64,000 bases of DNA, from assembly GCF_018390605.1 (NCBI RefSeq), contig NZ_JAHBGD010000024.1:124001-188000 (forward strand), in the 5' to 3' direction. The stretch comes from Ancylobacter defluvii (lineage in GTDB: Bacteria > Pseudomonadota > Alphaproteobacteria > Rhizobiales > Xanthobacteraceae). How positions within the stretch are numbered: position 1 is the stretch's first letter; the number at the start of each line of letters is the position of its first letter. Below are positions 2 through 60,505 of the stretch, piece after piece. Position numbers and translations under genes: made by a program. The notes below the pieces were generated by a model, which was not told where the DNA came from, ran no database searches, and saw only the letters and a list, made by a program, of their open reading frames with translations.

Positions 2-484
2 GCGATCCGCACCCGCATCCTCTCCTTCGCGTGGAACGAGGAGATGAAGAGCTTCGTCGATGCCGAGGAGGACGGGCAGATCGATGCCAGCCTGCTGCTG
101 CTCGCCGATCTCGGCTTCGTGCGGCCGGACGACCCGCGTTTCATCGCCACGGTGGAGCGGGTCGGCAGGGACCTGAAGCGCAACGGCTACATGATGCGCT
201 ATGCCGGCGAGGACGATTTCGGCCTGCCGGAGACGTCGTTCACCATCTGCTCCTTCTGGTACGCCAACGCGCTCGACATGATCGGCCGGCGCGACGAGGC
301 GCGCGAGATGTTCCAGAGCCTGCTCGACCGGCGCAACGAGGCCGGGCTACTCTCCGAGGACATCGACAATCAGACGCTGGAACTGTGGGGCAATATTCCG
401 CAGACCTATTCGATGGTGGGGCTCATCGACACGGCCATGCGCCTGTCGAAGACATGGGAGGAAGCGTTCTGGCGCGGCTCGTAA
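2..484 (+). CDS. GH15-family glycosidase (glucoamylase/trehalase type), C-terminal part
   Basis: The reading frame is open from the left edge, so only the last 160 residues are visible. Motifs such as ETSFTICSFWYANAL and DNQTLELWGNIPQTYSMVGLI match the C-terminal (alpha/alpha)6 barrel of glycoside hydrolase family 15, which cleaves alpha-glucosides such as trehalose, maltodextrin or glucans with inversion. There is no signal peptide information because the N terminus is missing. The stop codon lies 28 bases inside the downstream otsA frame, so the two genes are translationally coupled. The pairing with a trehalose-phosphate synthase suggests a role in trehalose or glucan turnover, but substrate cannot be read from this fragment. 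Confidence 0.85.
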   Translation, partial: AIRTRILSFAWNEEMKSFVDAEEDGQIDASLLLLADLGFVRPDDPRFIATVERVGRDLKRNGYMMRYAGEDDFGLPETSFTICSFWYANALDMIGRRDEAREMFQSLLDRRNEAGLLSEDIDNQTLELWGNIPQTYSMVGLIDTAMRLSKTWEEAFWRGS

Positions 485-47056: not shown

Positions 47057-47132
47057 GGGCCTGTAGCTCAATGGTTAGAGCCGGCCGCTCATAACGGTCT
47101 GGTTGCAGGTTCAAGTCCTGCCGGGCCCACCA
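47057..47132 (+). tRNA. tRNA-Ile2 (anticodon CAU, lysidine type)
   Basis: A complete cloverleaf can be drawn: acceptor GGGCCTG (47057-47063) with CGGGCCC (47122-47128), D stem GCTC/GAGC, anticodon stem GGCCG/CGGTC around loop CTCATAA, T stem GCAGG/CCTGC with loop TTCAAGT, and an encoded CCA at 47130-47132. The anticodon is CAU. Shape and sequence match tRNA-Ile2, whose C34 is changed to lysidine to read AUA, rather than a methionine tRNA. Its 3' end is the insertion site of the element that follows. Confidence 0.9.
47114..47132. other. attL core (tRNA 3' end)
   Basis: AGTCCTGCCGGGCCCACCA, 19 bases, identical to 59682-59700. Just upstream the tRNA has TTCA where the other copy has TTCG, which marks the left limit of identity. 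Confidence 0.92.
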
Positions 47133-47164
47133 ACACCTTGATTTCGTTCGATTTGGCGCCGACT

Positions 47165-47318
47165 GTACCAACAGCGATACCGTAGAAATTCGTTTTAAAT
47201 CAAACTCGTAGCTCGACAGAACACTTTGTGCGCCCCCATGCATCCCAGTGCATCCCCGCCTTGTGTTGGTACGGAACGTTGGTACGGTTCCGGCCATACC
47301 AACACTCGGGGTACCAAC
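47165..47318. repeat. Integrase arm-type sites, left end
   Basis: Five copies of GTTGGTAC or its complement: 47165-47172, 47265-47272, 47278-47285, 47296-47303 (one base different) and 47311-47318. They lie between the tRNA and the integrase start, where arm-binding sites of tyrosine integrases are expected. Confidence 0.7.
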
Positions 47319-47321
47319 GAA

Positions 47322-48509
47322 ATGGCACTGACAGACGTAAAGTGCAGGGGAACTAAGCCAACCGAGAAGACTCAGAAGCTGTCGGACGGCGGCGGGCTTT
47401 TCCTTCAGGTGAACCCCAACGGCAGCAAACTATGGCGGTGCGCTTATCGTTGGGACGGAAAACAGCGACTCGCGGCCTTCGGGCGATACCCTGAGGCATC
47501 GCTAGCGGATGCACGACAGAAGCGAGCCGACCTCAAAGCCTTGTTGGCATCCGGCATCGACCCGTCAAAGGCAACCACCCCTCTGCCCGTTGAGCACCCC
47601 TTCAAGCAGGTGACCGAGCTTTGGTTCAAAGCGAACGAAGCAAGGTGGGAACCGTCCTACAGCACTCGCCTTTGGGCTCGCCTGCGGGATGACGCGATTC
47701 CCGATCTTGGCGAGAAGGATGTGAAGGCGATCACGCCACAGGAGGTGCTCGCCACCCTCCGCAAGATCGAGGAACGCAACGCGATCGAAATGGCAAAGCG
47801 AGTCCGCTTCGCAATCAGTTCGGTTTTCAAATATGCGATCGCGGAGGGCTGGTGCAGCCTCGATCCGACCACCAGCTTGGCGTCGGCTTTGAAGGCTGCG
47901 CCGGAGCCCAAGCGACGCGCGGCGCTGAACGCGAAGGAACTGCCAACCTTCCTCGCCCGCCTATCGCACTATCCGGGCAGGCAAACGGCACTGGCATTGA
48001 AGCTGGTGGCACACACCTTTGTGCGTTCAGCCGAGATCCGGTTTGCGACATGGGACGAGTTCGACGGCGAAACCTGGAACATTCCCGGCTCGCGCATGAA
48101 GATGGGTCTCGACCATCTGGTGCCGCTCACCACACAGGCGAAGGGCATTCTTGCTGAACTCAAAGAGATTGCTGCCGGCTCGAAATGGGTCCTGCCCGGC
48201 GAGCGTGGATACAAGCCAATCTCCGAAAATACTTTAATATATAGCCTATACCGTATGGGCCATCACAGCCGCGCGACCATTCACGGATTCCGCGCGACCG
48301 CCTCCACTATTCTCAACGAATCCGGTTTGTTCCGCCCCGACGTTATTGAGCGTCAACTTGCCCATGTACCTCAGAACGAGGTTCGCGCCGCCTATAATCG
48401 CGCCCTATACATCAAGGAGCGGCGGGAAATGATGGCGTGGTACAGTGATTATATCGACGCCGCGGAGCGCGAGGGGATGAAGCACGACCTAACCGAGCTG
48501 CTTGAGTGA
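47322..48509 (+). CDS. int: P4-type tyrosine integrase
   Basis: 395 aa. The N-terminal arm-binding domain (DUF4102) shows KLSDGGGLFLQVNPNGSKLWR, AAFGRYPEASLADARQKR. The catalytic domain has R235 (FVRSAEIRFATW), K260, H321 and R324 (HGFRATAST), H348 (LAHVPQNEV) and nucleophile Y358 (AAYNRAL). Complete set, so likely active. Start ATG 47322 lies just past an arm-type site; a longer frame exists but runs through these sites. The gene points away from the tRNA. Confidence 0.96.
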   Translation: MALTDVKCRGTKPTEKTQKLSDGGGLFLQVNPNGSKLWRCAYRWDGKQRLAAFGRYPEASLADARQKRADLKALLASGIDPSKATTPLPVEHPFKQVTELWFKANEARWEPSYSTRLWARLRDDAIPDLGEKDVKAITPQEVLATLRKIEERNAIEMAKRVRFAISSVFKYAIAEGWCSLDPTTSLASALKAAPEPKRRAALNAKELPTFLARLSHYPGRQTALALKLVAHTFVRSAEIRFATWDEFDGETWNIPGSRMKMGLDHLVPLTTQAKGILAELKEIAAGSKWVLPGERGYKPISENTLIYSLYRMGHHSRATIHGFRATASTILNESGLFRPDVIERQLAHVPQNEVRAAYNRALYIKERREMMAWYSDYIDAAEREGMKHDLTELLE

Positions 48510-48663
48510 CGCGCCACACCAAGTGAAAATGGAGACGCATGGGGACGTACGCAAATAGTCACAGGATGACTAGAATGCATTTTCAAAAATTATGTGAAAT
48601 TACAGACGCTTGTCGCAAGCGCATCTGCAAGGTATATTACTTGCGGTGCCCCTAAAACGAGAT

Positions 48664-48695
48664 GAGGGCACTCCGGGTGGCTCCGGAATGCCCTC
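48664..48695 (+). promoter_or_regulatory. Hairpin in the leader of the replication gene
   Basis: GAGGGCA, then TCCGG, a six-base loop, CCGGA, and TGCCCTC: 12 pairs with one symmetric mismatch. It lies 23 bases before the TTG start of the replication gene and has no T run, so attenuation of translation or a protein-binding site is more likely than termination. Confidence 0.5.
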
Positions 48696-48717
48696 TGATC
48701 CTTGAAAGGATGCTCGC

Positions 48718-50769
48718 TTGCCCAGTCAATATACTTCAGCAGCCCATGCGCTGCAAGCGTCAGATTATGATCTCACTGACCTGCTGGCGCCAGAGACGGG
48801 CAGCATTGTCTCACTCGACAATAGATCGCTCGCGCTGCGTCTCGCGGCCGGAGGGAAGCCAGTCTTTCCTTGCGGGCCTGACAAGCGCCCCCTCACCCCT
48901 CGCAGTTTTCACGATGCCTCGACCGATGTCAGTCGCATTGGGCATTGGTGGCGCGATCATCCGCAAGCCTTGGTTGGGTTGCCGACTGGTGAGCCGAGCG
49001 GCCTCGCCGTGCTCGACCTTGACCGCCATCGGGCAGAGCAGGACGGCATAGCCGCCATTCGCGCGCTTGGTTTCGTTCCGACCGATCTATCGCCCGTGTC
49101 AGTCACGACACCATCGGGCGGGCTTCACCTCTATTTTCAGCACCGCAACGGGCTGACATGCAGTGCCCGTCACCTACCCGATGGTGTCGATATTCGAGCG
49201 GAAGGCGGCTATGTCATCGCCCCCGGCACGCTGCTGCCCGATGGGTGTCGCTATGGCACAGCGAACACCTTGGACAAACTACCACCCTTCCCTCCCGCTT
49301 TAGCGCCTCCCGTTCGCGCCAAATCCGATCCTCACGACCTTTCGGACTTGCTTGCCCCATCTCCGGATTGGGACACGGTGCGCGGTGCCCTCTCAGCCAT
49401 CCCGCCCGATGTCGATTATTGCGACTGGTTCAACATCGGGATGGCACTCCATAGCGCTTGCGGCGGCCTCCCTGAGGGGCTCGACGTTTGGGATGCCTGG
49501 TCCAAGGGCGGCACCAAATACAAGGGCCCCCGTGAGCTGGCCTCCAAATGGAGAAGCTTCACTGCCTGGGGCGGCATCGGCCTTGGTACGCTCTTTCACC
49601 TCGCCAGCGCTTACGGCTGGAGCGATCGGCCGGAATGGGGAGCCGATGATTTCGAGGACCTGCAGCCCCTCGCCTCTCGGCTGAAGCTTCTCACGCCTGC
49701 CGACTGCAAGTCCGCTCCCTCGCGAGGCTACATCATCAAGGGCATGCTCGCCCCGCGCGATGTCGGATGCATCTTCGGTCAACCGGGCGCCGGGAAGTCG
49801 CTGCTCGCCCCTCACCTCGCCTACGCCGTCGCACAGGGGCGCGAGGCTTTCGGCCTGCGCACCCGACAGGGCGGCGCCTTCTACGTCGCTGCGGAGGACG
49901 CGCACGGCATGCTGGGCAGGGTAAGAGCCCTGGAGATGGCACATAACGACGCGCCGCAATTCAAAGTGGTTGACGGGGTTTGCGACTTGCTCGCGGACGG
50001 CTCGCCCGATCTGGCGGATTTGGTGAACCTGGTGCGGGAGCATCGTCCCGCCTTAATCGTCATCGACACGCTTGCCATGGCGTTCCCCGGCCTTGAAGAA
50101 AACGACGCCAAGGGCATGGGGCGCGTCGTCGCCGTTGCACGCAAGCTGACTCAGTGGGGCGCCGCCGTGCTGCTGATCCATCACGACACCAAGGCCGAAG
50201 GTGCCACGCCGCGAGGCCATAGCCTGCTGAATGGTGCTCTCGACATGGCGTTGTGGGTGAAGCGCGACGAAGAGGGTATCATCCGGGGGCGCCTCACCAA
50301 GAATCGCAACGGCACCTGTGATCGTGACATAGCCTTCCGCATTGAGACGGAAGACGGCGGGCAGGATGACGATGGGGACGCTGTGACATGGCCACGCTGC
50401 GGCGAGCTTGTCGGCCCCCCCGCACGAAAGGAAAAAGCTCTGCCGCGGGGAGCGCAAGCCGCGCTCCATATCCTGCGGGATATGGAGCAGCCTGTGACCG
50501 AGGCGACGTGGAGACAGGCATGCATCGACGGTCGCAGAATGTCGCCGTCCGAGGATAGGAAGTCTCGCATCACAGCATTTCGCCGCGCCGTGGGTGAGCT
50601 GATCCAACGTGGTTCAATCCGCTTCGAGAACGGCTTCTATTGGGAAGATGATGGATTTGATCCTATCGCAGCTCGGCAGGGCGACAGACAGCGACAAAGC
50701 GGCGACATGTCGCCAAATGTCGCTACGGGCACAGGCGAGACCGGCGACAGACAGCGACACACCCCTTAA
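48718..50769 (+). CDS. Satellite replication protein: primase-polymerase and RepA-like ATPase
   Basis: 683 aa from a TTG start preceded by GAAAGGA. Domains in order: an archaeo-eukaryotic type primase-polymerase (35-190; DLD at 100-102, H137 in GGLHLYF, DIRAEGGYVIAPGT), a PriCT-2 domain (about 217-282, DYCDWFNIGMALHSACGG), and a RecA-like hexameric helicase ATPase (335-560; Walker A GQPGAGKS at 354-361, Walker B ALIVID at 445-450). Such proteins start and drive replication of satellites and plasmids. Its last codons lie inside the iteron cluster, which repeats the residues GDRQR. Confidence 0.9.
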   Translation: MPSQYTSAAHALQASDYDLTDLLAPETGSIVSLDNRSLALRLAAGGKPVFPCGPDKRPLTPRSFHDASTDVSRIGHWWRDHPQALVGLPTGEPSGLAVLDLDRHRAEQDGIAAIRALGFVPTDLSPVSVTTPSGGLHLYFQHRNGLTCSARHLPDGVDIRAEGGYVIAPGTLLPDGCRYGTANTLDKLPPFPPALAPPVRAKSDPHDLSDLLAPSPDWDTVRGALSAIPPDVDYCDWFNIGMALHSACGGLPEGLDVWDAWSKGGTKYKGPRELASKWRSFTAWGGIGLGTLFHLASAYGWSDRPEWGADDFEDLQPLASRLKLLTPADCKSAPSRGYIIKGMLAPRDVGCIFGQPGAGKSLLAPHLAYAVAQGREAFGLRTRQGGAFYVAAEDAHGMLGRVRALEMAHNDAPQFKVVDGVCDLLADGSPDLADLVNLVREHRPALIVIDTLAMAFPGLEENDAKGMGRVVAVARKLTQWGAAVLLIHHDTKAEGATPRGHSLLNGALDMALWVKRDEEGIIRGRLTKNRNGTCDRDIAFRIETEDGGQDDDGDAVTWPRCGELVGPPARKEKALPRGAQAALHILRDMEQPVTEATWRQACIDGRRMSPSEDRKSRITAFRRAVGELIQRGSIRFENGFYWEDDGFDPIAARQGDRQRQSGDMSPNVATGTGETGDRQRHTP

Positions 50770-50788
50770 GGGGTGTCGCCATGTCGCC
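50680..50788. repeat. Iteron cluster, candidate origin of replication
   Basis: A 17-base direct repeat GGCGACAGACAGCGACA at 50680-50696 and 50743-50759, exactly 63 bases apart (six turns). Further GCGACA/TGTCGC units lie at 50701-50714 (palindrome GGCGACATGTCGCC), 50718-50723, 50774-50780 and 50782-50788. A long inverted repeat with ACCCCTTAAGGGGT follows at 50754-50779. The cluster spans the end of the replication gene, the expected place for an iteron origin. Confidence 0.75.
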
Positions 50789-51105
50789 GTCGCTGCCATC
50801 CATGGATTAGATTTAAATCCAATTGGAGTTGCGTCGGGTGAGTTGGGACGTATCGCAATTCGTAACGAGAGACGTTCCTCGCCCTCATAGCTGGGGTGCC
50901 GCACCTCACCAGCACTAGCTTGCTTCATCCCATCCGTTGCTTCGATCCTATCGCAGTTCGCCGTCACAAGCGGCGGGAGCGCCGTTACGCCCTGTCCCTG
51001 CACGGGTCCCTCCCTACCCCGACCCATCGCGGGGACGCTGACCCCCGAAAGAACGCGCTTGACAATATTTTTGAAATATGAATTGCCATGTGATAAGTTG
51101 TCGAC
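50789..51105. other. Gap between origin and terminase genes
   Basis: About 317 bases without a convincing gene. It starts with a patch of AATTGGAGTTGCGTCGG type sequence and ends in an AT-rich promoter region. In lambda-type systems cos lies just upstream of the small terminase gene, so a packaging site is possible here, but I cannot mark one. Confidence 0.4.
51059..51079 (+). promoter_or_regulatory. Promoter/operator before the terminase genes
   Basis: TTGACA (51059-51064) is a perfect -35 element, directly followed by ATATTT, TTG, AAATAT, a perfect 6-bp inverted repeat (51065-51079) in the spacer. This suits a promoter controlled by a small regulator. The -10 element is not clear. Confidence 0.5.
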
Positions 51106-51618
51106 ATGGATGAATTCGATCTAAGTGACATCCTGGCCGATGATAGGCCTCCAGCCATTCCCGCTATTCTCGATACGTCGAGCATGGCGCGCCTCCTAGA
51201 CATAACCGCAGAGCGTGTTCGGATGCTTGCGAAAGACGGTGTGCTCATCAAAACTGATCGCGGCCGTTTCGACACGCAGGCTTCACTTCAGAACTACATT
51301 CGGAGGTTGCGCGAGTCCGCCGCTCGTGCGGGCCGCCCATCACAGGGCGGCGACGCTCTGAAGGCTGAGCGGCTTCGCCTCACCAGTGCGCAGGCGGAGG
51401 CGCAGGAAGCCAAGAATGCCGTCTTGCTGGGCGAGCTGGTGCCCGCCGCCGACGTGGAAGCCAAATGGGCAGAAATCCTGACCGACGTGCGGGCGGCGAT
51501 ACTGGCCGTTCCCGGCCGGATTGCAGGACGGATGAACCTCTCGGCGACCGATATCACCGCGATAGACGCCGAGATTCGGCTCGCTTTGACAGAGGCGGGC
51601 AATGCCGACCCTGCTTGA
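51106..51618 (+). CDS. Terminase small subunit (Nu1-like)
   Basis: 170 aa. An N-terminal winged helix (MARLLDITAERVRMLAKDGVLIKTDRGRFDTQASLQNYIRRLRES) resembles the Nu1 DNA-binding domain that recognises cos, followed by LKAERLRLTSAQAEAQEAKN and a helical region that would bind the large subunit. Its end overlaps the large subunit start by 17 bases. It starts at ATG 51106. Probably recognises the satellite's packaging site. Confidence 0.85.
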   Translation: MDEFDLSDILADDRPPAIPAILDTSSMARLLDITAERVRMLAKDGVLIKTDRGRFDTQASLQNYIRRLRESAARAGRPSQGGDALKAERLRLTSAQAEAQEAKNAVLLGELVPAADVEAKWAEILTDVRAAILAVPGRIAGRMNLSATDITAIDAEIRLALTEAGNADPA

Positions 51619-53368
51619 TATCGAGCGCGCCGCACGCCGCGCCTTGATCCCTCCGCCAAAGCTCGATTTGCCGACGTGGATCGAAGCGAACGTGCGCCTC
51701 CCCTCCTCAGTCTCGGCGGTACCTGGCGCACTGCGCCTCAGCCCTGTACAGTGGGGAATAGCGGAAGCCATCGGCGATCCGTCTATCGAACGCGTGACGT
51801 TGGTGAAGCCTGTCCGCCTTGGGCTTACGACCCTGATCACGTCGACCGTCGCCAGCTACATCGCAAACGAGCCCTCGCCCATCCTCGCGCTGCTGCCGAC
51901 CGAGTCCGACTGTCGCGACTATGTTGTAAGCGATATCGAGCCCATCTTCGATGCCTCACCGGAACTGCGCGGGCTCCTCAGTGGCGATGTTGATGAGACC
52001 GGTCGCTCAACCCTTCTGTCCCGCAAGTTTCCGGGTGGATCGCTCAAGATCGTTGCAGCTAAGTCGCCCCGCAATCTGCGGCGTCACAATGTGCGGATTC
52101 TGCTGATCGACGAAGCCGACGCGATGGAGTCCGGTCCCGAGGGCTCGCCCATCACGCTCGCCGAGCGGCGCACGCTGTCGTTTCCCAATCGCAAGATCAT
52201 CATGGGCTCGACGCCCATCTATGAGGAAGCGAGCCACGTTCTGCGCGCCTATCGGGAGTCGGATCAGCGCATTTTCGAGGTGTGCTGCCCGTCGTGCGGC
52301 GCGTTTCAGCAAATCCTATGGCGGCATATCCAGTGGCCGGAAGGCGAACCCGAGCGCGCGTATTTCATCTGCGAGGCGCATGGGTGCATCGTCGAAGAGC
52401 GTCAGAAAGGCGAGATGGTTGCCAAGGGCCGTTGGCGCGCCATGCGTCCCGAGTTGAAGGGACATGCCGGCTTTCGCTGCAACGTACTTGTCAGCACCCT
52501 TGCCAACGCCAGTTGGGGCAAGATCGCGCGGGAATTCCTCACCGCGAAGCGCAACGTCGACCAGCTTCAGACCTGGACGAACACACTCCTAGCCGAGGGT
52601 TGGCGCGAAGCCGCCGAGGAAGTCGACGAGTCTGCACTCGCCTCGCGCGTCGAGCCGTTCGGCCTGGCGGCGATGCCGGCCGATGTGCTGATCGTGACGG
52701 CGGGTGTCGACGTGCAGCGCGACCGGCTGGAAATCGTCTTCATCGGGCACGGGCGGGACGAGCTTTTCATTCTCGGCAATGCCGTCATCTGGGGCTTGCC
52801 GGAAGACGACCCCACCTGGGCCGAACTCGATGAACTGTTGAAATCAACATGGCAGCACCCGAACGGCGGCACGCTGCGAGTTGACGCGGCGGCTGTTGAT
52901 GCCGGTGACGGCGCGACCATGGATCGGGTGCTTTCGTTTTGTCAGCCGCGCTTCGGCCGGCGCGTGGTCGCCATCAAGGGCGCGAGCGGGAACCGGCCGG
53001 CAATCGCGGCGAGCGCGACGAAAGGCTCCCGGCTTTTCATCGTCGGCGTGGACGGTGAAAAATCGCGGCTGTTGGCACGCCTCAGCCGCGCACAGGGCAT
53101 CCGATTCAGCCGCGACCTTGAGCCACGCTATTTCGAGGAAATAGCTTCCGAGCGCGTTGTGGTGCGCTATACGCGTGGCGTTCCGAACCGCCTGTGGGAG
53201 CGCAAGCCCGGTCTGCGCGCGGAATGTCTCGACGCGACCGTGTACGCCATTGCGGTGCGCGGGTTGCTTCACATGAACCTAGAGCGGCGCACCGAGGAAT
53301 TGGCGAGCGCGGCAGCACCCGCACCGCGTTTACCAAACGTGATTAAGTCAGCATGGTTGAATCGGTGA
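51602..53368 (+). CDS. Terminase large subunit (GpA-like)
   Basis: 588 aa, GpA family (lambda type). The ATPase has an atypical Walker A region LVKPVRLGLTT (67-77) and Walker B LLIDEADAM (167-175), then TLSFPNRKIIMGSTP and the zinc-like CCPSCGAFQ. The C-terminal nuclease part has VTAGVDVQRDRLEIVFIGHG and VDAAAVDAGDG. It cuts and translocates DNA into procapsids. Length is somewhat below lambda gpA (641). Complete. Confidence 0.93.
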   Translation: MPTLLDIERAARRALIPPPKLDLPTWIEANVRLPSSVSAVPGALRLSPVQWGIAEAIGDPSIERVTLVKPVRLGLTTLITSTVASYIANEPSPILALLPTESDCRDYVVSDIEPIFDASPELRGLLSGDVDETGRSTLLSRKFPGGSLKIVAAKSPRNLRRHNVRILLIDEADAMESGPEGSPITLAERRTLSFPNRKIIMGSTPIYEEASHVLRAYRESDQRIFEVCCPSCGAFQQILWRHIQWPEGEPERAYFICEAHGCIVEERQKGEMVAKGRWRAMRPELKGHAGFRCNVLVSTLANASWGKIAREFLTAKRNVDQLQTWTNTLLAEGWREAAEEVDESALASRVEPFGLAAMPADVLIVTAGVDVQRDRLEIVFIGHGRDELFILGNAVIWGLPEDDPTWAELDELLKSTWQHPNGGTLRVDAAAVDAGDGATMDRVLSFCQPRFGRRVVAIKGASGNRPAIAASATKGSRLFIVGVDGEKSRLLARLSRAQGIRFSRDLEPRYFEEIASERVVVRYTRGVPNRLWERKPGLRAECLDATVYAIAVRGLLHMNLERRTEELASAAAPAPRLPNVIKSAWLNR

Positions 53369-53431
53369 GTGAACGCAATCAACCTCGGGCACATGAGATT
53401 CTGAGCTAATGATTCGTCGCAGGAGGATGGC

Positions 53432-54091
53432 GTGCCGTTGGATCCGATCCTAGTTAACCGCTTCAATGAATTGAAAAAAGAGGCGGATAATATTGAGGCC
53501 TCGAAGATAGTAGACCAAAGCGAATACATACCAAAATATGCCATCAACGGAAATAGACTGTTGACTTGGAGAGTAAAGGTTAGAAATTTGATTTCAATTG
53601 CTTGCGGTCAAAAATCAGAACATTATATTCAATTTCTTGAAGAAGAAAAACCAGATTCGTTTAGTAATTATCATGATATATTCCTCAGATTAAGGGCTGT
53701 ATTTTCGGCTGCGAAGGAAGATTTTGAAGGAGGTTACTTAATTACCTTGAAAAATCTAATTCAAGCAGAGGTTTTTAGTACAGAGTTAGATCAAGCTCGC
53801 GAGCTTTTGGAAAGCGGGTATCTCACTCCGGCGGCTGTAGTCGCGGGTGTCGTTCTTGAAACAAAACTTCGACAGCTATGCTCCAGTAGAGGTATACCTG
53901 AAGGAAAACTTGACAGAATGAATGCCGATCTAGCTAAATCTGGCCTGTATACGCTACTGGTTCAAAAACGAATTACAGCCTTGGCCGACATTCGTAACAA
54001 TGCGGCACACGGTCAACCAGACAAATTTAATGAATCCGACGTTCAAGATTTTATATCTTACGTAGAGAGATTTTCAGCCGATTATACTTAA
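53432..54091 (+). CDS. AT-rich cargo gene with HEPN-like motif
   Basis: 219 aa from a GTG at 53432 with a perfect AGGAGG site. Base composition is far lower in GC than the neighbouring phage genes, and codons differ. All-helical prediction. Near the C terminus ALADIRNNAAHG gives R188-x4-H193, the catalytic-type motif of HEPN nucleases. It sits between terminase and capsid genes and is not needed for packaging. Possible anti-phage or interference gene; no close family recognised. Confidence 0.65.
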   Translation: MPLDPILVNRFNELKKEADNIEASKIVDQSEYIPKYAINGNRLLTWRVKVRNLISIACGQKSEHYIQFLEEEKPDSFSNYHDIFLRLRAVFSAAKEDFEGGYLITLKNLIQAEVFSTELDQARELLESGYLTPAAVVAGVVLETKLRQLCSSRGIPEGKLDRMNADLAKSGLYTLLVQKRITALADIRNNAAHGQPDKFNESDVQDFISYVERFSADYT

Positions 54092-54200
54092 GCTCTGCAA
54101 CGATTATGCGGCGAGTTGGCGTGAGGGAGATGGAGCCAATCAGAACCGCTCCCCACGTTCGGCGCCGGGGCGACTTCCATCCCCGGTGCGTACGGGCTGA

Positions 54201-54401
54201 TTACGCACCCACAGCGCAATCTGACACAAGACGCTCGGCAGCAGCCTGGATAAAACCGATTTCAATGCCGGTTATTTGCGAATCCGCGACCATTCTCTTG
54301 ATAGCGTTGAGAAACAGGATGGGATTCTGCTCCGCCTGCATTTCCTGCAAGAGAGCGGCGAAAGCCTTCCGACCAACCTCACATTGTTCTGAATAATTCA
54401 T
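54201..54401 (-). CDS. Small protein on the opposite strand
   Basis: 66 aa from ATG 54401 with GGAGA upstream. Predicted helical (EQCEVGRKAFAALLQEMQ, LFLNAIKRMVADS). No family recognised. It is divergent from the capsid genes across a repeat-rich region, a position typical of a regulator. Confidence 0.5.
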   Translation of the reverse strand: MNYSEQCEVGRKAFAALLQEMQAEQNPILFLNAIKRMVADSQITGIEIGFIQAAAERLVSDCAVGA

Positions 54402-54473
54402 CGCATCGTCTCCATATCTGGCGATGCGCATATGCAACCAATATTCGAGTATTTCGTCAAATCACAAAAATTG

Positions 54474-54510
54474 CAATTTAAATGTGACATTCAATTTAAA
54501 TTGTGACATT
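54474..54510. repeat. Tandem AT-rich direct repeats
   Basis: CAATTTAAATGTGACATT (54474-54491) and CAATTTAAATTGTGACATT (54492-54510), differing only by one extra T. They lie about 70 bases before the small opposite-strand gene and could be operators or promoter -10 elements. Confidence 0.65.
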
Positions 54511-54778
54511 CAGTCGATAAAATGCGCAAACGAAGCCTCTAAATTGGAAGTCGTTATTTTTATTCTGTTCGCTTTCATCCAGTACGCAAGCAATATTGCC
54601 GCCTGAGTGAAGTCATACCCGGCACGATGGAACGCATCGACCGCCTCGCGAGCTTTCCGAACTTGGTTCGGCGTCATCCCTCTGACCCTAAAGAGACGGG
54701 CGGCGCCAGAGGCAACCGCCCGTAAGTTTCAAGGAGTTGAACCAACATCGCGATCACTCGATGCCAGCATCACCCTTG
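54511..54778. other. Regulatory gap without a clear gene
   Basis: Part of a 458-base gap between the 66-aa gene and the next gene. It has a 62-codon open frame at 54607-54795, but with no ribosome site and no plausible protein features; it runs into the operator-like repeat. Confidence 0.45.
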
Positions 54779-54829
54779 TATCAGATTGGAATTGATAATT
54801 CTAATGGAATTGATAATTCCAATCTGATA
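54779..54829. promoter_or_regulatory. 51-bp operator-like inverted repeat before capsid operon
   Basis: Outer arms TATCAGATTGGAATT (54779-54793) and AATTCCAATCTGATA (54815-54829) are perfect 15-base inverted copies. Inside, TGGAATTGATAATTC is repeated directly at 54787-54801 and 54805-54819, 18 bases apart, and each core is itself a palindrome around GGAATT-GAT-AATTCC or close to it. It ends 30 bases before the next gene. Binding by a dimer of dimers is likely. Confidence 0.75.
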
Positions 54830-54859
54830 TCATCCGATCCATAATGGAGGCTCGGATTG

Positions 54860-55411
54860 ATGGCCAGCTTTACCCTGCGCGAATTCAGTGACGTCATTAG
54901 CCGCGCCGAGGCGCGTCGGAACCTGAAGAAGCTGGATAACCAGTTCAAGGGCCTCGCCGCTCGTGGCCTTCTGACTCAGGCCAGCGCGTATTTTGGTCCG
55001 CGGGGAGCCCTGCTCTTTCCCGAAATTGAGTGCTATCGCGCGCGACTGCTAATTGCCCTTATCGAGGCCGGTGGCATCGCCTCGGATGACCTCGCCCAGT
55101 TCAACGTCGCGGTGGGCAGGTCGCTGCCGATGGTGGTCGCCTCGCTTGGCGAGGCAAGCCCGCCGTTTTGGCTCATGGCGGTGGACCGGATCCGCGATCC
55201 TGAGACCGATGAGGTACGCGCCAGCTATCCACACTGGATTCGCGACGACAGGCCGCTCGGCAGCCTTCACACAGACCTGCTGCAGCCCGATCCCGAGGGC
55301 TTCACGCTCGACACAATTGGCCCCATCGAGATGGTGCAGACTGTGCCGGTGACGCGCTTGCTGCTCCCCCTCTGGCGGCAGTTTCGTAAGCATGAGACCG
55401 CTCATGCTTGA
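54860..55411 (+). CDS. Probable satellite regulator or small head-operon protein
   Basis: 183 aa from ATG 54860 with GGAGG upstream. The first 75 residues (LREFSDVISRAEARRNLKKLDNQFKGLAARGLL, ending in LFPEIECYRARLLIALIEAG) look like a MerR-type winged helix; the rest has no family. It directly follows the 51-bp operator-like repeat and overlaps the portal gene by 20 bases, so it may control the head genes. Not recognised with certainty. Confidence 0.55.
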   Translation: MASFTLREFSDVISRAEARRNLKKLDNQFKGLAARGLLTQASAYFGPRGALLFPEIECYRARLLIALIEAGGIASDDLAQFNVAVGRSLPMVVASLGEASPPFWLMAVDRIRDPETDEVRASYPHWIRDDRPLGSLHTDLLQPDPEGFTLDTIGPIEMVQTVPVTRLLLPLWRQFRKHETAHA

Positions 55412-56759
55412 ACGTGCTCGCGCCAAACTGGCGCAGTGGATTGCTCCTGAGCACACCCGGAAGTTCGACGGAGCGTCGCAGGGACGCCGAACGTTCGGCG
55501 CCGGCACATTCGGTCGGGTGAACAGCGAAGTCGGCGCAGCGGGACAGGCCCTTGCGGCACGTTCCGCTTACCTCGCGGCGAACAATCCTCTGATCGCCAA
55601 CGCGGTCGGGAACATCGTCGGCGAAGCAGTCGGCAGCGGCATCCGCCCTTCATCGGACCTGGTGGCAGAATTCGACGCCTGGTCCGATCATGCCGATGCG
55701 GACGGCCGAACCGACTTCTACGGGCTGCAGACGATCATCTGCACCGATGTCGTGGTGCGCGGCGAGTCCTTCGTTCTCTTGAGCAACGACGAGTCCGGTC
55801 TCACGCTTCGCGTGCTCGACGTCGAGCAAGTCGACCGTAGCTTGACGCGCGACCTTGGCAACGGTGCCCAGATTGTGCAGGGCATCGAATTCGACACCAG
55901 CGGCAACCGTGTCGCCTATCACATCTCGCCTGCCCGGCTCACCGATACGTTCGCTTCCTGGGCACCGCCCGTTCGCGTCGACGCTGCCGACGTGCAGCAT
56001 ATCTTCCGGCCATTGTTTCCCGGACAGGTGCGTGGGGTGCCGTGGACCGCTCCCATCATTCTGTCGGCTGGCGAACTCGACAAGCTCAGCGACGCGCTGC
56101 TCATGGGCGCCAGTGTCGCGGCGATGTTCTGTGGTGTCGTCACCGACCAGAACGACTTGTCTAGCGGCGAAGACCCGTTCGGCGGTGAAGCCCAGCCCTC
56201 GCTGGAACCTGGCACCCTGATCCGCCTGAAAGGTGGCCAGTCCGTCACCTTCGCCACGCCGCAGCAATCCCAAGCCGTCGCCGAACTGCTGAAGGTGCAG
56301 ATACGCCAACTCGCCGCAGGGATGGGCTTGCCCGCCTTCATGGTCGACGGCGATCTGACTGGCGCCAACTATTCCAGCCTGCGCGCCGGCCTTCTGCCGT
56401 TCCGCCGCCGGATCGAAGCTTTCCAGTATCACTGCTTGGTGCCGCAGCTTCTCGCGCCCGTGTGGCGCCGCTGGCTGGCGACCGAAGGTGACGCCGACGC
56501 ATCGGCGCGCGTCGAATGGATCATGCCCAAGCCGTTGCAGGTTGATCCTCAGAAAGACGTTGAAGCCGATTTGGCCGAACTGAATGCCGGCCTTGCCAGC
56601 CGTCGCCAGAAGGTCGCGGCGCGTGGCTGGAACGCCGAACAGCTTGACGCCGAGATTGCCGCCGACCGTGCGCGGGAAAAGCGCCTTGGGCTGACCTTCG
56701 GCGCCTCCCCGCCATCGCAGAAGCCCGAAACTCCCACTCGAAGCGGAGTCGACGAATGA
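55392..56759 (+). CDS. Phage portal protein (lambda family)
   Basis: 455 aa. Features of lambda gpB-type portals: RSAYLAANNPLIANAVGNIVGEAVGSGIRP, WSDHADADGRTDFYGLQTIICTDVVVRGESFVLL, HIFRPLFPGQVRGVPWTAP, MGLPAFMVDGDLTGANYSSLRAGLLPFRRRIEAFQ (in outline). It forms the vertex ring through which DNA enters. The start could be 55392 or 55404. The stop overlaps the capsid gene start (ATGA). Confidence 0.93.
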   Translation: MRPLMLERARAKLAQWIAPEHTRKFDGASQGRRTFGAGTFGRVNSEVGAAGQALAARSAYLAANNPLIANAVGNIVGEAVGSGIRPSSDLVAEFDAWSDHADADGRTDFYGLQTIICTDVVVRGESFVLLSNDESGLTLRVLDVEQVDRSLTRDLGNGAQIVQGIEFDTSGNRVAYHISPARLTDTFASWAPPVRVDAADVQHIFRPLFPGQVRGVPWTAPIILSAGELDKLSDALLMGASVAAMFCGVVTDQNDLSSGEDPFGGEAQPSLEPGTLIRLKGGQSVTFATPQQSQAVAELLKVQIRQLAAGMGLPAFMVDGDLTGANYSSLRAGLLPFRRRIEAFQYHCLVPQLLAPVWRRWLATEGDADASARVEWIMPKPLQVDPQKDVEADLAELNAGLASRRQKVAARGWNAEQLDAEIAADRAREKRLGLTFGASPPSQKPETPTRSGVDE

Positions 56760-58630
56760 GAGCCGAACCGAATGCGCGCGGACGATCCCTGAAGCCGGCT
56801 GTGCGTCGCCAGCGGGATGACGTCAGCATTGAACCCGGCGCCATAGTTGATCGCCCGTTGGAGGCTCGCACGGAACGATACCGTGCAGCGTCCGCCCGCC
56901 CGTCGAGCTGGTCCGACGAGACCATGACTTTCGAGGCTGTTGCCGCCACCAGCACCGCCGGGGTTCGCCGTCGTGATGGGCGCAGCACCTATGTCGAAGT
57001 GCTTGACGTCGCGAGCGTGGATACCGCCGCCTTGGTCGATCTGCCCGTGCTCGACAATCACCGCCGCGCCTCCGGTCGCGATGTTGTCGGCATCGTGCAG
57101 CGCGCCCGCATCGAAGGCGACTCGCTGATCGTCACGGTGCGCATGAGCCAAGCCGATGATGCCCGCCCGCTGGTGCAGCGCGCCAAGGATGGGCTGTTGA
57201 GCCTGTCCATTGGTTACACCGAAGCCGGCCGCACCGAGTCCGTCGTGAACGGTGAGCGCGTGCGCACCGTAACCCCTGCAATCTTTGAAGTTTCCCTAGT
57301 CGCAGTCCCGGCTGATCGGGCTGCCCGAGTCAGGAGTGGCGCTATGCCCGATATCGAAGAAATTGAAGACCGGGCGCCGCTGGTGCCCGAAATGCCGGAA
57401 GCCGATCAGGCACGCATCCGCAGCATCGGCGAGCTTGCGGACCTGCCGCCGTCGTTTGCCGAAGGGCAGATTTCGACCGGCGCGACGATCGAGGGAGCCC
57501 GCGCCGCCGCGCGTGCCGAGATGATCCGCCGTTCCGAAGGCACTCGCACCATCCGCGCGACCGTCTCGCAGCCCGATCCGGGCGTGCAGCTCCGCGCCAT
57601 GGGCGATGCTCTCGACGCGCGCGTGAACGGCACCGCTCCCAGCGAAGCCGGCCGCCCGTTCATCGGCGCCAGCCTGCGCGACCTGGCAACGGAATGCCTT
57701 CACGCTCGCGGCGTCTCGACGCGCGGCATGAACCCGGATGCGCTGTTCCGTGCGGCGCACACCACGTCGGACTTCCCGCACCTCCTGCAGGGAGTCGGCG
57801 CCCGCACGCTGCTGGCGTCCTACACCGCCGCCGCGTCCCCGCTGAGGCAGGTTGCGCGGCAGGGCTCGCGGGCGGACTTCCGTCCCGGCTCGACGCTGAA
57901 GCTCGGCGAGCTGTCCGCCCTGTCCAAGGTGACGGAGTCGGGCGAGGTGAAAGCCGTCTCCCGTTCGGAAGCGGCCGAGTCCTATGTGCTCGACACCTAT
58001 GCGGGCATGTTCTCGATCACCCGCAAGGCGCTGATCAACGACGATTTGAACGCCTTCGCAGATTGGTCCCGTGCGGCCGGGCAGGCTGCTGCTGCGACTG
58101 AGGCGGGTGTGCTCTGGTCCCTGCTGTCGCAGGCGAGCGGCGCCGGTCCCGTCATGAACGAAGACTCCAAGCGCCTCTTCCATGCTGATCACGGCAACCT
58201 GCTCACGGGTGCCGCGCTCGACGTGGACTCGCTCAGCGGGGCGCGGCTCGCGCTGCGCACCATGAAGGGGCTCGACGGAAAGACGGTGATCACCGTGACG
58301 CCGCGCTATCTCGTGGTCGGTCCCGAACTGGAGACCGTCGCCGAACAGGTGCTCGCCGCGATCACCGCCACCACGGTTGCCGACGTGAATCCCTTCGCCG
58401 GCAAGCTGACGCTGCTGGTGGAGCCGCGCATCACCGATGATGCCTGGTACATCTTCGGCGATCCGGCGACGGCCCCCGTGCTGGAATACTCCTACCTGTC
58501 GAGCGCGCCGGGTCCGCAGATGGCGAGCCGCGAGGGTTGGGACGTTCTCTCGACCGAATATCGCGTGGTGCTCGACTTCGGCGCCGGTGCCGTCGACTGG
58601 CGCGGTGCTGTTCGGAATCCGGGTGAGTGA
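56756..58630 (+). CDS. Fused prohead protease and major capsid protein
   Basis: 624 aa. The N-terminal part (about 50-200) is an HK97-type prohead protease, with H102 in LDNHRRA and S151 in LLSLSIGY, ending EVSLVAVPADRAA. A linker with acidic and glutamine-rich sequence follows. The C-terminal part (about 310-620; SYTAAASPLRQVARQGSRADF, SITRKALINDDLNAF, RYLVVGPELETVAEQVL) is an HK97-fold major capsid protein. Fusion proteins of this type are known in phages and must be cut for assembly. It is the sole capsid gene. Confidence 0.9.
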   Translation: MRAEPNARGRSLKPAVRRQRDDVSIEPGAIVDRPLEARTERYRAASARPSSWSDETMTFEAVAATSTAGVRRRDGRSTYVEVLDVASVDTAALVDLPVLDNHRRASGRDVVGIVQRARIEGDSLIVTVRMSQADDARPLVQRAKDGLLSLSIGYTEAGRTESVVNGERVRTVTPAIFEVSLVAVPADRAARVRSGAMPDIEEIEDRAPLVPEMPEADQARIRSIGELADLPPSFAEGQISTGATIEGARAAARAEMIRRSEGTRTIRATVSQPDPGVQLRAMGDALDARVNGTAPSEAGRPFIGASLRDLATECLHARGVSTRGMNPDALFRAAHTTSDFPHLLQGVGARTLLASYTAAASPLRQVARQGSRADFRPGSTLKLGELSALSKVTESGEVKAVSRSEAAESYVLDTYAGMFSITRKALINDDLNAFADWSRAAGQAAAATEAGVLWSLLSQASGAGPVMNEDSKRLFHADHGNLLTGAALDVDSLSGARLALRTMKGLDGKTVITVTPRYLVVGPELETVAEQVLAAITATTVADVNPFAGKLTLLVEPRITDDAWYIFGDPATAPVLEYSYLSSAPGPQMASREGWDVLSTEYRVVLDFGAGAVDWRGAVRNPGE

Positions 58631-58863
58631 TGCAGACCACTGATGAACTTCTTGCAGAAGCCCGGACTGCCTATCACCGACTTCAGATCGGTGAGAGTGC
58701 CGTCGAGGTTCGCGACAGCGACGGTTCGAGCATCCGTTACACAGCGGCGAACGCAAACATGCTTGTCCGCTACATCAAGTCGCTCGAAGCTGCTCTAGAG
58801 CATCGCATCGGCGGCCCCTCCTCAATCATCCGATTCCAAACGTCGAAAGGACTCGACCGATGA
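58630..58863 (+). CDS. Head-to-tail joining protein (gpW-like)
   Basis: 77 aa from ATG 58630, overlapping the capsid stop. DELLAEARTAYHRLQIGES and SSIRYTAANANMLVRYIKSLEAAL match the two-helix, one-hairpin gpW fold, which plugs the portal after packaging and prepares the head for a tail. Overlaps the next gene by 4 bases. Confidence 0.82.
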   Translation: MQTTDELLAEARTAYHRLQIGESAVEVRDSDGSSIRYTAANANMLVRYIKSLEAALEHRIGGPSSIIRFQTSKGLDR

Positions 58864-59189
58864 AGAACTATGTCCAGAGGGGCGAAACCCTCACCTTCCC
58901 TGCCCCTGCCGCCGTCGTTTCCGGTGAGATCGTGATTGCCGGCTCGATCATCGGCGTTGCCGCCGGTGGCGCTGCCAGCGGCGCAGATGTCGACGTCGAC
59001 GTGACGGGCGTATTCACCCTACCCAAGGTCGCGGCGCTCGCTGTCACGCTCGGCGCTACTGTCTATTGGGACGCGGCGAACAAACTCGTCACCACCACCG
59101 CCAGCGGCAACACCAAGCTGGGCTATGCCGTCGCCGCAGTCGGCAATCCGAGCGCCACCGTCAACGTGCGGCTGGTGCCTGTCGTCTAA
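58860..59189 (+). CDS. DUF2190 capsid decoration protein
   Basis: 109 aa. MKNYVQRGETLTFPAPAAVVSGE and LGATVYWDAANKLVTTTASGNTKLGYAV match the DUF2190 pattern found next to phage capsid genes and thought to decorate or cement the shell. It is the last gene of the head operon; no tail gene follows. Confidence 0.85.
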   Translation: MKNYVQRGETLTFPAPAAVVSGEIVIAGSIIGVAAGGAASGADVDVDVTGVFTLPKVAALAVTLGATVYWDAANKLVTTTASGNTKLGYAVAAVGNPSATVNVRLVPVV

Positions 59190-59270
59190 CGACTGCGCTT
59201 CGAGCGCAATCAAGCAACTTCAGAGGCCCCGGATAGGCGTGGAACATCTCCGGAGCCTCAATCTCACCCG

Positions 59271-59507
59271 TTAACCTTCCGCTTCTGCAGAACTCTCTTG
59301 CTGTCGAACAAAAGGATCCTTTCGGCTGTGAAACGGTGGGTTCAGCATCTCATCGCGGTGAATCGAGAATCCACTGACCTTGTACATCACTCGACGCTCG
59401 TTGATTTGCTTAAATACATCATCAAGCGTCACAGCGCCGTGGAACACATATGTATCAGTGCTTCCGTCGTTGGTGACGACTGCGACGAAGCGGGATTCTT
59501 GGCTCAT
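59271..59507 (-). CDS. Small protein at the right end of the element
   Basis: 78 aa with TTGGAGG before the ATG at 59507. Mixed alpha/beta prediction (SRFVAVVTNDGSTDTYVFHGAVTLDDVF, RRVMYKVSGFSIH). No family recognised. It converges on the head operon and lies 175 bases from the right attachment core. Confidence 0.55.
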   Translation of the reverse strand: MSQESRFVAVVTNDGSTDTYVFHGAVTLDDVFKQINERRVMYKVSGFSIHRDEMLNPPFHSRKDPFVRQQESSAEAEG

Positions 59508-59625
59508 AAGCTGACCTCCAAGTGAGTGGGCAGCATACCCGACTCGGGGATGGCCTAGGGGCAGGCTCGGCGTCTGTCCCCATTTTTAACGAAATCTGTG
59601 GAAGGTCTCCTACCGCACCAAAGGT

Positions 59626-59649
59626 GTTGGTATCGATGTTGGTACCAAC
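59626..59649. repeat. Integrase arm-type sites, right end
   Basis: GTTGGTAT at 59626-59633, and GTTGGTAC at 59638-59645 overlapping GTACCAAC at 59642-59649 (palindrome GTTGGTACCAAC). Same 8-base word as at the left end, about 35 bases before the right core. Confidence 0.7.
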
Positions 59650-59681
59650 TCCAAATTCCATAGATATTTCAAAAACTTTCG

Positions 59682-59700
59682 AGTCCTGCCGGGCCCACCA
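59682..59700. other. attR core
   Basis: AGTCCTGCCGGGCCCACCA, identical to the tRNA 3' end at 47114-47132. Upstream it reads TTTCG, the usual T-loop form TTCGA, so this is probably the original chromosomal 3' end of the tRNA displaced by integration. Confidence 0.92.
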
Positions 59701-59840: not shown

Positions 59841-60150
59841 ATGAAATCCAACGGTCCCGCAGATACCAACAACATGCCGCCGACTGATACCGCCGTGCGG
59901 AATGCCAAAGGCAAAGAGCAGCCCTACAAGCTGTCCGATGGCGGTGGGCTTTACGTCCCCGTCAATCAGAACGGCTCCCGCTATGAGCGCCTCGCCTACC
60001 GCTTTTCCAGGAAGCAGAAGACATCGGCACTCGGAACCTATCCCTCGGTCACTCTCGCTGATGCAAGAACCCGGCGAGATGAAGCGAAGCGTGTCCTGGC
60101 ACCGGGAACCGACCCCAGCGAGAAGCGACGCGCCGACAAGCAGGCAGTAG
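59841..60150 (+). pseudogene. Truncated second P4-type integrase
   Basis: The frame encodes an intact DUF4102-like N terminus (MPPTDTAVRNAKGKEQPYKLSDGG, LGTYPSVTLADARTRRDEAK, GTDPSEKRRADKQA from about 59874) and then runs into unrelated sequence after about 60150. The core-binding and catalytic domains are absent. ATACCAAC at 59863-59870 resembles the arm sites of the intact element. A remnant of an earlier element at the same tRNA. Confidence 0.8.
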
Positions 60151-60505
60151 CTGCGCGGTACCGGCATCGACATGCGTTCGGTCTATGCCCATGCCGGCAT
60201 TCTCCCCGTGACGAGATGCGCGTTCCTGCCCAATCGCCGGTTCGACTGGGCCAACCGAAAATGGCGAACCCGCCGTTCGCGACCCCGTCGCCTGGTTGAT
60301 CGCCGAGCCGTCGCGCTTCGACACAGCCATAGGCACGGCGGCGCTGCTCGGCGCTGACCAGATCGCCAACCCGGCCTCATATTTTGCCGGCCAGCGGCTG
60401 CTCATCCACCGGGCGCTTCTCGATTGGGTTCGTGCCCCGACGCTGGCGAGTTCGGCCGACAGATCGGCCAGGCGATGTTCGAAGCTCCCCACTCGAGGAT
60501 GCTTC
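60151..60505. other. Non-coding remnant region
   Basis: About 355 bases between the integrase remnant and the autotransporter stop. An open stretch (LIAEPSRFDTAIGTAALLGADQIA) gives no recognisable domain. Probably remains of an old integration. Confidence 0.4.

Follow-up and report, generated by a model that had tools for sequence, protein, structure and literature searches.

The question raised by this locus is whether a 12.6-kb element inserted at a tRNA gene, which carries an integrase, a replication gene, and a set of phage head genes, is a satellite that builds its own capsids or the residue of a prophage that once had a tail. The element lies in a 64,000-nucleotide stretch of the Ancylobacter defluvii genome (contig NZ_JAHBGD010000024.1), here called the window, and a first-pass annotation had described it as a tail-less, capsid-forming phage satellite. 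We arrive at the same reading, an integrated, capsid-forming phage satellite, with a probability of about 0.86. Its features, in window coordinates, are as follows.

47057..47132, + strand: tRNA with a CAT anticodon, with attL (47110-47132) at its 3' end
47226..48509, + strand: tyrosine integrase (Arm-DNA-bind_3, Phage_int_M, and Phage_integrase)
48718..50769, + strand: replication protein (Prim-Pol, PriCT_2, and AAA_25 ATPase)
50680..50788, no strand assigned: origin-like site, six TGTCGCC iterons and hairpin ACACCCCTTAAGGGGTGT at 50759-50776
51106..51618, + strand: terminase small subunit TerS (phrog_57; Phage_Nu1 below its cut-off)
51602..53368, + strand: terminase large subunit TerL of the gpA type (ATPase and nuclease)
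53432..54091, + strand: low-GC cargo gene (weak HEPN match; R-x4-H motif in the translation)
54857..55411, + strand: orfX, conserved portal-adjacent gene (no family match; predicted MerR-type fold)
55392..56759, + strand: portal of the lambda family (HMM; Pfam and PHROGs)
56756..58630, + strand: prohead protease/major capsid fusion (HMM; alignment of fused proteins)
58627..58863, + strand: gpW-like head-tail adaptor (HMM)
58860..59189, + strand: cement/decoration protein (Phage_cement_2)
59678..59700, + strand: attR, copy of the 23-bp repeat (comparison with genomes of the genus)

Gene identities were assigned by HMM searches against Pfam and PHROGs, which recovered all of the genes on which the original proposal was built, namely, the integrase (at the left end of the element in the window), the replication gene, the terminase pair, the portal, the protease-capsid fusion, and the gpW-like and cement genes. 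In the fusion, His102 and Ser151 are invariant among the 95 fused proteins aligned, and the Peptidase_S78 score is below the Pfam cut-off. The fusion had been named, together with the primase-polymerase, as what would set a distinct family apart; it is not distinctive, since annotations of complete Rhodobacter and Paracoccus phages include it as well. Apart from the gpW adaptor, PHROGs and Pfam gave no tail, lysis, or repressor match for the ten main proteins, and seven more small ORFs that lie in the element or overlap it had no Pfam match at E values of ≤0.05; the ORF scan took in part of the overlapping antisense ORFs. The claim that nothing recognizable for tails, lysis, or phage repression is present is thus borne out for families in the scanned ORFs, except that a probable regulator, the MerR-fold orfX, is present.

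The element measures 12,568 bp from repeat to repeat, in agreement with the tRNA-bounded 12.6 kb first described. The two copies of the 23-nt repeat (47110-47132 and 59678-59700) are identical at 22 of 23 positions, and by our estimate chance would not be expected to place a repeat of this length exactly at the end of a tRNA. The tRNA was typed as Met by ARAGORN; we take its earlier assignment as tRNA-Ile2 to be plausible. The repeats differ in one allele, TTCAAG in the left copy and TTCGAG in the right copy. Twenty-nine other genomes of the genus were compared by blastn, and the right copy was matched in 18 of them and had no match in 11; among the 18, 14 are identical to the right copy across all 23 bases, one (L237) has TTCGAG as in the right copy, and three have a single mismatch to it. 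Because these genomes match the right copy, this copy is probably the original 3' end of the host tRNA, and the left copy was probably brought by the element. To the right of the tRNA, the same 18 of 29 genomes share only the repeat itself with the window (23 to 33 aligned bases), and L253, one of the 11 without a repeat match, gave an unrelated 50-base match there. No exact empty site was found among the 29 genomes compared, so it is the repeat and the difference in alleles that carry the case for insertion. An N-terminal integrase fragment (59841-60299) lies immediately beyond attR; it has 51% identity to the element integrase and matches Arm-DNA-bind_3 only. The fragment is probably the remnant of an earlier insertion, which suggests that the same tRNA site has been used before.

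Relatives were gathered by scanning two collections with an alignment of ten TerL proteins. The best 80 of 171 TerL relatives were kept from the genome collection and the best 80 of 454 were used from the virus collection, two of which were already in the set; the survey comprises 161 sources, the window included. All kept genome-collection relatives with a genus, family, or class name are Alphaproteobacteria, and three metagenome-assembled genomes (L093, L099, and L101) are without a class name. In the host's own family, relatives of the capsid protein occur in 50 of 296 genomes, the own genome counted. TerL, portal, and capsid were all called in 132 loci, and the gene order of the window, with TerL before the portal and no tape-measure label, recurs in 108 of these. 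The window and duplicates between the collections (e.g., L033/L079, L082/L164, L086/L171, L091/L186, L095/L198, and L106/L228) are included in the locus counts, and the 108 is an upper bound, as our tape-measure profile does not detect every tape measure: among 78 cargo ORFs, it missed one that matched TMP_2, the Pfam family of lambda-type tape measures. This match probably belongs to a 996-aa ORF of L232 between terL and the portal gene. The remaining loci are (i) two with TerL before the portal and a tape-measure label, (ii) 11 of a phage type, and (iii) 11 with the portal before TerL, six of which carry a tape-measure label. Usually, the genes run from the primase through TerS, TerL, cargo, orfX, portal, capsid, gpW, and cement to the integrase.

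The att search was tried on 102 integrase-bearing loci, 42 of which gave a repeat of at least 17 bp; three self-overlaps (L173, L182, and L217) were dropped, and seven repeats not overlapping a tRNA were left out of the sizes. The 32 tRNA-anchored elements, including that of the window, range from 9,851 to 13,234 bp, with a median of 12,162 bp. The repeat of L101 has the same sequence as the tRNA-end repeat of the window, and the tape-measure label of this locus is on no ORF inside the element bounds used. Of the 388 ORFs in the 31 tRNA-anchored relatives of the window element, none was labelled as a tape measure, sheath, or tube, and only three of their 126 unlabelled ORFs of at least 50 aa are longer than 400 aa. 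For these 126 ORFs and four of the window (130 leftover ORFs), regulators, primases, and replication proteins predominate in the families listed (25 of 81 in PHROGs and 25 of 32 in Pfam), with gpW and DUF6441 once each; a rarer tail gene may lie among the other families. An excisionase/regulator PHROG was matched by six of the 130, relatives and window taken together. The virus-collection contigs that carry the family have a median length of 12,410 bp (n = 53).

Some loci depart from this pattern. Within the same host family, a further TerL lineage (L037, L038, L039, L046, L047, L049, and L057) shows ~34 to 37% identity to the window TerL and has related head genes, several of them beside an integrase and a tRNA; in L039 and L046, a tape-measure homologue lies between terS and terL. 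Loci L040 to L044 and L048 have integrase-linked capsid fusions, and no portal or large terminase was detected in them by blast with the window proteins; their packaging genes may be divergent or borrowed. The 10,690-bp Rhodovastum atsumiense plasmid RHOAph (L035; NZ_OW485609.1) encodes ParA, a toxin-antitoxin pair, DUF3987, and a capsid-protease fusion, and neither a terminase nor a portal is annotated on it.

The genes of the element are a subset of those of a phage genome, as they would be in a defunct prophage from which the tail and lysis genes had been deleted recently. In the relative from Bosea sp. 117 (L033/L036/L079), terL and the portal and capsid genes are each present as two ORFs, which reflects either decay within the family or sequence errors. 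The sign of such a deletion had been named in advance as relatives in which the same left part runs on into tail and lysis genes; none was seen in the gene maps of the 160 related loci, which cover flanks of up to 10 kb with ORFs annotated in part. The phage-type relatives (Rhizobiales and IMG/VR sequences) have TerL proteins with 56 to 59% identity to that of the window and also relatives of its portal, capsid, gpW, and cement proteins. However, all 11 are arranged differently (neck, TerL, gpW, and portal) and lack orfX. Baseplate and fibre genes are present in the one of the 11 that was checked, the 49,987-bp contig L224, and the phage label of the others rests on gene order. We take L224 to be P2-like.

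In a FastTree phylogeny of TerL with 132 rows, the close TerL clade comprises 118 rows, and nine phage-type rows form with L133 one nested group of ten inside the satellite-rich clade; the tree has local support only, with long branches flagged, and does not settle the direction of change. L133 was scored as tail-less by our script yet is placed in this phage group. In 14 pairs, dN/dS ratios lie between 0.03 and 0.40 for those of the TerS, TerL, portal, capsid, and cement genes that were called in both members. Between the window and L078, they are 0.31 for TerS, 0.08 for TerL, 0.11 for the portal, 0.18 for the capsid, and 0.21 for the cement protein, at dS values of 1.3 to 1.7 that are near saturation. 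At the level of codon comparison, this shows that the head and packaging genes are under purifying selection. In four pairs (L207/L213, L091/L085, L167/L168, and L117/L121), the integrases are only 24 to 41% identical and the TerL proteins 87 to 98%, which points to frequent swapping of the integrase and probably of the target tRNA. A recent deletion is very unlikely, and we set it aside on three grounds: the recurrence of the same order in 108 of 132 loci, the tRNA-anchored repeats with narrow sizes where they were found, and selection, the main genes of the window being open with dN/dS ratios well below 1. Tail-less order, narrow tRNA-anchored sizes, and purifying selection on the head genes all support the satellite reading.

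Less likely again is a small complete virus, independent of any helper, with an unrecognized tail or a tail-less virion. Several ORFs of the family have no known function, and ~12-kb contigs occur in the virus collection, as such a virus would predict. Portals, gpA-type terminases, and gpW are components of tail-accepting heads, and their presence in the element argues against a tail-less virion, as does the absence of any lysis family from the scanned window proteins against a self-sufficient virus. Moreover, few long unlabelled ORFs are available to encode an unrecognized tail, and the conserved unknown gene has a predicted MerR-type fold.

If the element is a satellite, its tails would come from elsewhere. 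A search for a complete helper prophage with a matching tail had been proposed, and none was matched: the own genome holds a prophage with a sheath and a baseplate hub, but its portal and capsid are of families other than those of the element, and the genome has no gpW besides that of the element. We presume this sheath-bearing prophage to be Mu-like. Its tape measure (788 aa) is 29% identical to that of L045. As a guess, the helper tail is possibly contractile, of the P2/Mu type, based on the matches of sister-element tape-measure and chaperone genes to PhageMin_Tail and TAC E/41/14 and on the related tape measure in the own-genome prophage. Sheath matches were obtained in four of ten host-family genomes searched (two of ten over the cut-off), and six had none, so a resident contractile helper is often absent. 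A second sheath-domain gene of the own genome, in a 789-aa frame (G000:C11:96327-96815), possibly belongs to a contractile injection system or another prophage. Gene transfer agents (GTAs) have no integrase or att sites and occupy a fixed, vertically inherited locus, unlike the element, which has an integrase and att repeats and whose relatives sit at different tRNAs. That the satellite instead uses the tails of a resident GTA is the least credible explanation of all, since the one strong Phage-tail_3 (PF13550) gene of 1,309 to 1,408 aa in 10 of 10 family genomes searched, the own included (in length, we assume, GTA-like), is offset by the lack of a PF13550 match in five of eight other host genomes, with all three Roseomonas-type hosts among these, and by the PhageMin_Tail and TAC E/41/14 matches of the sister-element tape measure and chaperone.

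Two features of the satellite are new in this analysis, the portal-adjacent MerR-fold gene and the iteron/hairpin origin-like site. A MerR-fold gene lies beside the portal gene in 77 of 110 non-phage loci with TerL before the portal and in all five portal-first loci without a tape measure; it is found in none of the 11 phage-type loci and in none of the eight loci with a tape-measure label. From the modelled fold, we infer that orfX may be a regulator of the head operon. The site at 50680..50788 is a putative replication origin, judging from its iterons and hairpin. A hairpin site near terS occurs in 13 of 110 loci and the hairpin as such in only 14 to 15 of 110; short repeats upstream of terS are found more generally, in 23 of 93 loci versus 3 of 93 control stretches. 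A search of the element for a cos site gave no result. Around the cargo gene, the GC content drops from ~0.64 to 0.44; its HEPN match (E = 3e-4) is under the family cut-off, and PADLOC gave no match for it.

A set of sister elements (L052, L055, L058, L060, L067, L068, L053, and L045) is satellite-like, and the head genes are accompanied by a tape-measure homologue and, in most cases, by a TAC-type chaperone. Matches to tape-measure families are encoded by L052, L053, L040, and L042. Among the 55 ORFs of L052, L045, L053, L034, and L036, PhageMin_Tail was matched three times, TAC E/41/14 twice, and Phage_attach once, and the full list of 16 Pfam families matched by these ORFs includes no tube, sheath, baseplate, or fibre. 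A 53-bp tRNA-Pro repeat bounds the 15,301-bp element of L052, and the att-bounded lengths of L055 and L058 are 15,061 and 18,086 bp, respectively; no att repeat was found in L045. On the TerL tree, the tape-measure label switches four times. A tape measure in a satellite is not in itself a novelty, since E. coli satellites with a capsid, a tape measure, and a baseplate part but no terminase are on record in the passages of PMC10448857 that concern them.

The published capsid-forming phage-inducible chromosomal islands (cf-PICIs) reportedly fall into three radiations, or capsid clades. With the cf-PICIs (Alqurainy et al. 2023), as their features are given in the relevant passages of PMC11389934, PMC10690885, and PMC10448857, the element shares its own terminase pair, portal, protease, capsid, connector, integrase, and replication protein, as well as the absence of tail genes. 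In contrast to them, it has a protease fused to the capsid, a gpA/Nu1-type terminase, a Prim-Pol/AAA_25 protein, and the portal-adjacent MerR-fold gene. An HNH endonuclease with the packaging genes (passages of PMC10690885) and an alpA homologue and a Pri-Rep initiator (passages of PMC10448857) are listed as cf-PICI features. The scanned ORFs of the window element include neither an HNH endonuclease nor an AlpA/excisionase match, and the Prim-Pol/PriCT_2/AAA_25 protein, recognized from domain matches, is a candidate counterpart of Pri-Rep. In L060, an HNH gene adjoins terL. By analogy, the element would work like a cf-PICI; membership is not claimed because AlpA and HNH were not found in its scanned ORFs.

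Other satellites are similar in part. The E. coli RepA_N satellites, in the account in PMC10448857, share with the tape-measure-bearing sisters a capsid, decoration, and tape measure, lack most tail genes, and mostly adjoin tRNAs, as here, but they are without the terminase, prohead protease, and adapters that the present elements have. The Streptomyces satellites MulchRoom and MiniFlayer also encode head and packaging genes, and the MulchRoom tail is inferred to be that of the helper; they differ in being actinobacterial, with virulent helpers, terminal repeats, and no primase, and are described as having no significant homology to PICIs, cf-PICIs, PLEs, or P4 (the relevant passages of PMC10690885). 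A complete temperate phage, in turn, has tail and lysis genes, none of which were found in the scanned ORFs of the element. A literature search for alphaproteobacterial capsid-forming satellites listed no paper whose title or passages point to such a case; in PMC10690885, Alphaproteobacteria are mentioned once, in a cited title.

Upon induction or helper infection, the satellite would excise, and its Prim-Pol protein would replicate the DNA from the iteron/hairpin site, while the MerR-fold orfX protein would switch the head operon. The TerS and TerL that it encodes would then start at a cos site of the satellite and fill a small head, made by the satellite as well, with its DNA; gpW would link this head to helper-made tails, possibly of the contractile P2/Mu type; lysis would also be supplied by the helper. 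The interval between terL and the regulator holds variable cargo, with defence-like genes in some relatives. More tentatively, and at somewhat less than even odds, these elements may be an independent alphaproteobacterial radiation apart from the published cf-PICIs, with a MerR-fold switch of its own; beside it, several 15- to 18-kb forms with a tape measure and tail chaperone may set the length (or the injection properties) of the helper tail. If this is true, a satellite would set the length of a tail whose tube and sheath come from its helper.

The findings point to widespread capsid-building satellites in Alphaproteobacteria, a family that can be recognized by its TerL, gene order, and size. 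Small defence genes may be sought in the stretch from terL to the portal gene. The family would also be a test case for how heads made by a satellite are matched to tails from another source and, in the sister elements, for why some satellites bring their own tape measure.
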